Assembly: GCA_015493585.1 (NCBI GenBank)
Contig: WGCW01000139.1
Location: 1-47,112, forward strand
DNA length: 47,112 nucleotides
Reading direction: 5' to 3'
Source of the DNA: Acidobacteriota bacterium
Lineage (GTDB): Bacteria > Acidobacteriota > Thermoanaerobaculia > Thermoanaerobaculales > Sulfomarinibacteraceae
Shown: piece by piece, positions 9,351 to 11,587 of the stretch
Layout of the letters: each line of letters starts with the position of its first letter
How positions within the stretch are numbered: the stretch's first letter is position 1
Position numbers and translations under genes: made by a program
Notes under the pieces: model-generated
Databases searched by the model: none
The model's input: only the letters and a program-made list of their open reading frames with translations
Told to the model about the DNA's origin: nothing

Positions 9351-10454
9351 TCAATCGCCGGGGCGAGCGGAGACGATCCGGTGAAACTCCGTGTGCTCGG
9401 CCAGCCACCGTCCGTACCCGTGCACGAGCTGCAGGAGCTCTCCGTTGCGATCAAGGTCGCCGGGGAACTCCAAGCTGACATCGGCATCCTTCCGGCCGGT
9501 AAAGGCGCGCCACGATTCGGGCGTCGGCTGGATGATCCTGAGGCGCATCCCACGGTAGGCCTCCGATCCCGGAAGAGCGGCCGCCAGCTTTTTGGCCAGG
9601 AGATGGCTCTTCACGTCCGCGGTATCCGAGACGAGCTCGGCGTAGAGGCCGGCCAGAGCGTTGGCCCGGATGAACATCGCCAGATCATTTTGGAAGATCT
9701 CGTTGGTCAGGATCTCCTCGGCTCTCAGGCCAAGCTCGAGCAGGCCGTGAAACTCACGATCGGCCCCTGCGGGGTCCTGCGGAGAGGCGAGGACGACATC
9801 GATCGTATCGAGATCGGCTCCGCTCTGCTTCGCCGCGCCGATCGCATCGGCCAGCGGCGTGATGTTCCGGACGCCCCCGTCGACGAATTGCAGCCGCCGG
9901 CCGGAGCAGCGGGCTCCGGGAGCGTTGAGGACGAGCTCGACGGGATCGAACGCGAGCGGAATCGCCGTCGAGGCGAGGACCAAGGGCACGATGCTGCCAG
10001 GCTCGACATCAGTCGTGGGATCGGCGGCCACGTATTCCCCGGTCTGGAGGCAGACCACGCCGATGCGAAGCGTGTGGCCGAGTGTGTGCAGCCGTTGAGC
10101 CAGGCCGGCCGCAAACGGCTCGAGGATTTCGGCGAGCTCCCGGTTGTCGTAGAGGCCGTCCGTCGCCCGGAGGTCGGCGTAGGTCAGGAGGCCGGGCGCA
10201 ATCGCATGGACGGCGAGATTGGCCGCGTCGAGTTTGGAACGGAAGGCCGGCATCCCGCGCCGCGCCTGATCGACCCAGAGCCTCGCCATCTCCTGGATCC
10301 GGTTCTGCGCGGCCATGAAGACGTTGAGCGCCCCGGCCGACACCCCGCAGTACACCGTCCACCCGCCGTCCCCAGCTTCAGCCAAACGATGGACGACGCC
10401 AGCCTCGAAGATCCCCTTGACCCCTCCGCCGGAAAGAACGAGCGCCCGTGCCAT
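9351..10454 (-). CDS. Patatin-like phospholipase
   Basis: This is a 367-residue Ser/Asp-dyad lipid acyl hydrolase. It has the oxyanion-hole glycine motif LSGGGVKGIFEAG near the N-terminus, the nucleophile elbow GVSAG with Ser39, STAIPLAF, and the catalytic Asp in FVDGGVRN (Asp192). All four hallmark blocks are in the normal order, so it should be active on phospholipid or lipid esters, probably on the cytosolic face. I chose ATG 10454 (MARALVLSGGG), because the twelve residues that an upstream start (10490) would add are not conserved. The DUF3179 selenoprotein gene lies 84 bases upstream and the degenerate GGDEF gene 31 bases downstream, all on one strand. No function linking the three is obvious. 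Confidence 0.88.
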   Translation of the reverse strand: MARALVLSGGGVKGIFEAGVVHRLAEAGDGGWTVYCGVSAGALNVFMAAQNRIQEMARLWVDQARRGMPAFRSKLDAANLAVHAIAPGLLTYADLRATDGLYDNRELAEILEPFAAGLAQRLHTLGHTLRIGVVCLQTGEYVAADPTTDVEPGSIVPLVLASTAIPLAFDPVELVLNAPGARCSGRRLQFVDGGVRNITPLADAIGAAKQSGADLDTIDVVLASPQDPAGADREFHGLLELGLRAEEILTNEIFQNDLAMFIRANALAGLYAELVSDTADVKSHLLAKKLAAALPGSEAYRGMRLRIIQPTPESWRAFTGRKDADVSLEFPGDLDRNGELLQLVHGYGRWLAEHTEFHRIVSARPGD

Positions 10455-10538
10455 GGTGCTAGGGTACCGCGCCCGTACCGGATCCTCCACCTACGGCAAG
10501 CGCCGGGGACAGGCCCGGTCCGTTATCGAGGCATGAGA

Positions 10539-11567
10539 TCAGTCGACGACTCGTGTGTTTGGGAAAAAGCAGCTCCAGGCAAACCAGTAGGCGACGTGAA
10601 CTTTAACTGGTTTGAGAACAGCTCCCCGGTGAGGACCGGATATTGCTCGGCCCGTGTCGAGCTTCCAGAGCCCTCCATGATCGTCAACGGCCCATCCCTT
10701 CCTTGGAGCAGGTTTCAAGTGGATCTGCGTGCCCGGTGCGCCGGCGCGGTATGCGCGGATCCCCCCATCCCCCCCTGCAACGACCAGGACCCCGGAGCGG
10801 CCAATCTGGACGGGAACGATCTTCCGTCTGCGGATGACTCCGCTGGTGATGGCCACCGCCTCACCATCAACGTGAACCCCGTAGACGAGCTCCTTGCCCG
10901 GGAGTCTGCCCCTGAGCCAGTGTGATCGGAAAAGCCCGATTTTCTTCGGGTTGTCGAAGTAACTATGATAGGGAGATGAGGTGACTTGGGTTTCTTTCTT
11001 GAGGAGCCATGTGCCTGGATGATCGTTCCTCCACGCTCTCCATGTCGTTTGCACGGCCGGCAGACTCTGAAGCTGAACACCCTTGAGCGGACCGATAATG
11101 CCGATGCCGAGGACATGGCTCCACTTCGTGTGCGTCTCCGCATCCTTCATCACCATGCTGTTTCGCCACAGCGCTCCAGAGACCAGAAATGTCAGGGTCA
11201 TCGTGTCACGCTTGCGGACGTAGACCACGCCCGTGTGGCAAAGGGGTCACCAGGTGGCCGCGATGGCGGTGCCCGAGATCGTGTCGTTGACGATTTCGTG
11301 CGCATCGAGCTGCCACAGCGAGTAGGCGTGCGACTCCCCGTCCACGGTGACGCCCAGGACCGGCTCACCGGGTTTCATTTGCGCGTCGGCCTGCCGTCCG
11401 CGGACGAACTTCGGGTGTAGGATGGCCGGAATGGCGTTCACGGGAAGCACCTGGTACACCGGATCCCCCCGAACCTCGGCAATGATCTTCGGTGCGGGGC
11501 GCTGTGCCAGAACCCACATGGGGAGGGCCAACATGAGAACGGTTGTGGCAACGATCCGGTGACTCAT
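10539..11567 (-). CDS. DUF3179-family exported protein, probable selenoprotein (in-frame TGA = Sec107)
   Basis: The coding frame runs from ATG 11567 (GGAGGT ahead of it) to the stop at 10539 and is interrupted only by TGA at 11247-11249, codon 107. Read through, it is 342 residues. A signal peptide (about 1-21, ending VLA) indicates export. Before the TGA come IPAILHPKFV, PVLGVTVDGESHAYSL and HEIVNDTISG. After it, in the same frame, come PLCHTGVVYV, FLVSGALWRNSMVM, AISGP-type repeats and YWFAWSCFFPNT. Together they give one complete DUF3179 protein. The family motif TY/WCPLC aligns as TW-TGA-PLC, so the TGA replaces the first Cys of a CxxC pair. A matching SECIS-type hairpin follows. The family function is unknown; a UxxC pair suggests periplasmic redox chemistry. 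A sequencing error or nonsense mutation is the alternative, but neither explains the hairpin. Confidence 0.85.
11215..11233 (-). promoter_or_regulatory. Candidate bacterial SECIS element
   Basis: In the mRNA, CGGGCGU pairs perfectly with ACGUCCG (7 bp, one G-U), closing a five-base loop GGUCU. The stem begins 13 bases after the UGA and the loop guanines are bases 21-22 after it. Known bacterial SECIS hairpins lie just downstream of UGA with a guanine-bearing apical loop about 16-37 bases away; the E. coli fdhF loop also begins GGUCU. SelB would bind here to deliver Sec-tRNA. Confidence 0.75.
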
Positions 11568-11587
11568 GGTACCTCCGATCACACCTA

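Follow-up and report, generated by a model that had tools for sequence, protein, structure and literature searches.

The minus-strand gene at positions 10,539 to 11,567 of the window (the whole stretch of DNA that was analysed, 47,112 nucleotides) almost certainly encodes a selenoprotein, sequence comparison indicating that selenocysteine (Sec) is inserted at its in-frame UGA (11247-11249). Sec decoding is supported by a protein domain that continues unbroken across the UGA, by the presence of the sel genes in the genome, by the recurrence of TGA at this codon among homologues and by a covarying helix downstream of it. The gene adds a member to DUF3179 (PF11376), a selenoprotein family already known, and the family call is not new. 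We take the product to be, most likely, an exported enzyme of selenol-dependent redox chemistry, whose reaction we infer, and it is predicted to be built from two Rieske-like domains that lack the ligands of the iron-sulfur cluster.

The gene and its product

The features referred to below are the following.

10539..11567, minus strand: gene of the DUF3179 selenoprotein (342 residues, with Sec107), ending in the stop codon TGA (10539-10541)
11565-11567, minus strand: start codon ATG
11571..11576, minus strand: Shine-Dalgarno-like GGAGGT, 3 nt ahead of the ATG, as read from the sequence
11505..11567, minus strand: signal-peptide-like N-terminus, MSHRIVATTVLMLALPMWVLA followed by QRP, export predicted from the sequence
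11247..11249, minus strand: in-frame UGA, Sec107, motif W-U-P-L-C
11215..11233, minus strand: SECIS hairpin, 7 bp CGGGCGU/ACGUCCG (one G-U pair), loop GGUCU at 11222-11226
10998..11378, minus strand: predicted N-terminal Rieske-like domain, residues 64-190, containing Sec107
10542..10922, minus strand: predicted Rieske-like domain of the C-terminal half, residues 216-342, duplicated from the same unit as the N-terminal domain and since diverged

An earlier, sequence-only reading of this DNA had proposed a selenoprotein gene here, and it had the coordinates and the strand right: a minus-strand open reading frame runs from the ATG at 11565-11567 to the TGA at 10539-10541, interrupted by a single internal TGA (11247-11249, residue 107). 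It had also taken the residues on the two sides of this TGA for parts of one DUF3179 protein, and indeed a single Pfam match (residues 44-338, E 2.7e-68; 231 bits, where the Pfam gathering score is 27; covering 2-292 of the 292 profile positions) spans residue 107, where the TGA occupies the first Cys position of the motif, as had been noted, to give U-P-L-C within W-U-P-L-C. No NCBIfam family matches the protein. Its C-terminal residues before the stop are shared by DUF3179 homologues, each with its own stop, and the signal-peptide-like N-terminus suggests that the protein is exported. It clearly exemplifies how standard gene calling splits a selenoprotein gene in two.

On its own strand of the window the DUF3179 gene is followed, after 48 nt, by a patatin-like phospholipase open reading frame (9351-10490, minus strand), and the two are possibly co-transcribed. 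A patatin-like phospholipase was not seen beside DUF3179 in the relatives examined, nor does DUF3179 have a conserved neighbour, as no family is common to the genes that flank it in ten relatives. Gene neighbourhood, which pointed to no substrate or electron donor, was dropped as a clue to function, with neighbours differing in each relative.

Selenocysteine machinery and conservation of the UGA

The genome to which the window belongs is an Acidobacteriota MAG of 3.1 Mb in 194 contigs, with a listed completeness of 99.6%. The sel genes for which the sequence-only reading had suggested a search are all found in it: selA (E 2e-148), selB (E 1e-94, above the curated cut-off), two copies of selD (E 1.6e-107 and 3.2e-107) and a tRNA-Sec (selC) with the anticodon TCA. 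Both selD-like genes (L019 on C16 and L020 on C116) are full, and both score well above the curated cut-off. Among the 396 sampled Acidobacteriota genomes, selA is present in 253 and a DUF3179 match (E 1e-10) in 129. The DUF3179 gene is patchy in its distribution, being absent from the sole other sampled genome of the genus, and its nearest named relatives include Acidobacteriota MAGs (Thermoanaerobaculales, Holophagae).

Seen by itself, a lone TGA in a MAG contig would pass for a nonsense mutation or an assembly error in a split pseudogene. The comparative data refute this reading, leaving it a negligible probability: TGA stands at the identical codon in many independent genomes whose frames are otherwise open, and it is followed by a covarying helix, in a genome equipped with sel genes. 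Three members of the window's family-level group carry TGA at the exact codon, and their proteins share 48-54% identity with the one described here. More orthologues with TGA were identified by scanning named genomes, namely in Acidobacteriota, in Calditrichota, in a MAG labelled Deferribacteres and in an Eisenbacteria MAG, while a MAG labelled Bacteroidetes supplied a single orthologue with Cys (TGC). That the codon is TGA is thus borne out by independent assemblies from several phyla. Internal stops in the DUF3179 matches listed for the 396 Acidobacteriota genomes are always a single TGA, never TAA or TAG. Homologues aligned at this column, proposed earlier as a check, have Sec or Cys, the exception being a clade of its own in which the residue is N, S, D, Q or H. 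Checked in these ways, the three conditions that the sequence-only reading had set for its refutation leave the selenoprotein call standing.

The gene selA is commoner among carriers of the TGA form. It is present in 49 of the 52 genomes with a TGA form among the matches listed, versus 59 of the 77 other DUF3179 carriers (Fisher p 0.008), and p falls to 1e-7 when the comparison is with every other genome sampled, figures that are indicative, as the genomes are related and the TGA forms come from the matches listed. Three genomes with TGA (G082, G116 and G348) have no selA match, and since all three possess a tRNA-Sec scoring over the gathering score, their selA was probably missed or is unassembled. 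Four genomes with neither selA nor a TGA form among the matches listed have no tRNA-Sec, and three of these read directly as TGC. As a separate observation, the DUF3179 orthologue of the Holophagae MAG CSMAG_2570 (G002; L036/L066) has an in-frame internal deletion that removes the Sec-bearing core and joins ...DAHEIV straight to KQMPGKALVWG..., representing either a true loss or an assembly error.

The internal UGA is clearly translated through, as would also be expected from a genome-wide reassignment of UGA, or from readthrough without selenium. We consider both very unlikely: the window gene and its close homologues stop at UGA at a conserved C-terminus, the other genes of the window are normal under table 11, a tRNA-Sec is present, and, in a comparison confined to the sequence behind the internal UGA, a conserved SECIS helix follows it.

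The SECIS hairpin

The hairpin described by the sequence-only reading exists at the place proposed, with a start 13 nt past the UGA, a GGUCU loop and loop guanines 21-22 nt past the UGA, but it is not perfect, since a G-U pair is among the seven. If the U of the UGA is taken as nt 1, the helix is formed by nt 17-23 and 29-35, the G-U pair being 20-32, with an energy of -9.4 kcal/mol. Folding had been suggested as a check, and by it the region is no more stable than its shuffles (z 0.5 to 0.8); energy alone was rejected as support for this reason. As to chance occurrence, 7.5% of the codon positions in the window precede some 7-bp hairpin of SECIS-like geometry, and 0.09% precede one of the exact geometry.

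It is the comparative evidence, not single-sequence folding, that lifts the helix above chance. In an ungapped alignment of 30 distinct W-U-P homologues, extending 40 nt from the UGA, nt 17-23 and 29-35 are paired in 98.1% of cells, versus 22-49% when the helix is slid by 1-3 columns. Compensatory double changes (GC to UA, GC to AU, CG to UA and GC to CG) occur in five of the seven pairs, amounting to 17 double-compensated cells, and the unprompted consensus fold of the 30 homologues is the identical helix. Constraint on the protein sequence T-G-V-V-Y fixes part of the segment, and invariant pairs are therefore uninformative; the compensatory changes, however, go beyond what selection on the protein by itself accounts for. 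Eight Cys homologues retain between two and five of the seven pairs and have lost the helix. In its position downstream of the UGA, its G near the start of the loop and its conservation with covariation, the hairpin has the features looked for in a SECIS element. Other hairpins are seen, on reading, near the TGA of more distant homologues, for example GGGCGUC-GGUCU-GACGCCC in L037 (G004:C72). This locus encodes a very diverged DUF3179 paralogue with an in-frame TGA in the motif F-U-G-V-C, and its hairpin has a perfect 7-bp stem, the same GGUCU loop and a slightly different distance.

Predicted tandem Rieske-like domains

No solved structure was found for the DUF3179 protein by sequence search. 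An AlphaFold2 model built with 14 homologues (pLDDT 89.5) was compared with PDB folds, and its C-terminal half (residues 235-328) matches the Rieske ferredoxin 1vm9 with Z 8.7 (rmsd 2.6, 89 residues), while its N-terminal half (76-179) matches whole Rieske domains with Z up to 7.0. When the N-terminal domain is modelled alone (pLDDT 92.8), 91 of its residues align with 1vm9 at an rmsd of 2.6 and Z 9.3. Every one of the 50 PDB matches listed for this model is a Rieske or Rieske-related domain. In Foldseek the E values are weak, the best Rieske values among the matches listed being 0.01 and 0.09, and the Rieske probabilities are high. A thioredoxin fold was not seen among the structure matches listed, where a missing entry does not prove absence.

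Profile comparison points in the same direction. The two halves are duplicates of one another (hhalign 99%, E 6.4e-18), and the C-terminal half matches a profile of Rieske proteins from the window's order (70.8%, E 3.8e-5). The N-terminal half did not match the Rieske profile in direct comparison, and PF00355 gave no match over the cut-off, its best E being 0.07, in 2 of 14 members. The [2Fe-2S] ligands C-x-H and C-x-x-H, invariant in the Rieske set, are absent from both DUF3179 domains: the aligned C-terminal domain is devoid of the Cys and of most His, and the N-terminal domain has no C-x-H/C-x-x-H pair. The model and the profile comparison together suggest two duplicated Rieske-like domains without cluster ligands. 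As a side observation, PF00355 gave no Rieske protein anywhere in the window's genome, versus 35 of the 37 genomes of the order that have one.

One candidate role for Sec107 was that of a Rieske cluster ligand, as U-P-L-C-H resembles the C-P-L-H loop. It was rejected because aligning the N-terminal to the C-terminal domain, and this in turn to the Rieske profile, places Sec107 in the beta-hairpin turn that precedes the first cluster loop, thus probably not at a ligand position.

Sec/Cys exchange and the likely active site

A tree of 62 sequences implies at least six exchanges between Sec and Cys, Cys being found at the UGA position in L053, L083, L085, L088, L089 and L094-L096. Such exchange would be as expected for a catalytic selenol. 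In the same tree, a separate clade of the window's own order has N, S, D, Q or H at this column, perhaps representing a form of DUF3179 that is different or inactive. Its members (L024, L027-L031, L034-L035 and L039-L050) mostly keep the second Cys (TY[NSD]PLCDS).

The sequence-only reading saw in U-P-L-C a redox pair of the CxxC type. The motif is as it described, with Sec or Cys at the first position; the second position, however, varies, being Ala or Val (UPLA/UPLV) in 13 Sec homologues, and so the UxxC pair, by this alignment, is not the conserved active unit. Eleven of these 13 have no other Cys in the stretch examined, their N-termini having been delimited roughly. His90, Glu91, Asp95 and Asp142 are invariant.

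Comparison strongly supports that SelB and tRNA-Sec, guided by the hairpin 13 nt downstream, insert Sec at UGA 11247-11249. The mature protein is predicted to consist of two Rieske-like domains in tandem, both clusterless, with Sec107 in a beta-hairpin turn of the first. The selenolate would react with an oxidant or a sulfur species in the periplasm, and the oxidised Sec could be reset by the neighbouring Cys110, or by an external thiol in homologues without a counterpart of Cys110. For such a redox step the balance of the evidence is mildly favourable. It is also possible, if rather doubtful, that Sec107 binds a metal (copper, mercury or iron, for example) or serves as a non-redox nucleophile. 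The many homologues with a lone Sec and no resolving Cys agree with either role, Rieske folds are scaffolds for metal clusters, and the invariant His90, Glu91, Asp95 and Asp142 could be ligands. However, the canonical Rieske ligands are missing, the alignment places Sec in a hairpin turn off the cluster loops, and repeated Sec/Cys exchange is typical of redox sites, even if compatible with a ligand. In the family as a whole, a lone Sec, in many members without a resolving Cys, on two tandem clusterless Rieske-like domains quite probably represents a new periplasmic active site.

Comparison with known systems

The sequence-only reading had doubted the novelty of its family call, and the doubt was justified. 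Two reviews, PMC9312934 (2022) and PMC13188914 (2026), tabulate DUF3179/PF11376 as a prokaryotic selenoprotein family with the motif UxxC/T, and the former cites Zhang and Gladyshev (2007, NAR 35:4952; Olavius symbiont) for it. A RefSeq plasmid record, there a Cys form, is likewise named 'DUF3179 domain-containing (seleno)protein'. The window gene shares with the reviewed family both the Pfam family and the motif class, UPLC corresponding to the UxxC/T of the reviews. Differences lie in the sampling, which here is mainly of Acidobacteriota and Calditrichota, in the many UPLA/UPLV forms, which the tables of the reviews do not list, and in the fold, predicted here, whereas no fold or function is given in the passages of PMC9312934 and PMC13188914 on this family. 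Neither a Rieske relationship nor the UPLA/UPLV form is mentioned for DUF3179 in those passages or in that of a third paper which names the domain. A literature search of partial coverage, thus weak evidence of novelty, found no link between DUF3179 and Rieske proteins, and nothing that brings Rieske and selenoproteins together. These data provide DUF3179 with a fold and an active residue, both predicted, and with a partner Cys that appears dispensable. A domain of unknown function thereby becomes an enzyme hypothesis open to testing, in a phylum most of whose sampled genomes carry selA.

In the comparison with Rieske ferredoxins and domains (PF00355; PDB 1vm9, 2de7), either half of the model overlays an entire Rieske domain, and the C-terminal half is also similar by profile. 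DUF3179 differs from them in missing the C-x-H ... C-x-x-H ligands, in having two domains in tandem and in the predicted placement of Sec in a hairpin turn. The thiol oxidoreductases with CxxC or UxxC motifs are the general class with which U-P-L-C of the window invites comparison. From these, DUF3179 is set apart by a second Cys that is not conserved and by a predicted fold that is Rieske-like.
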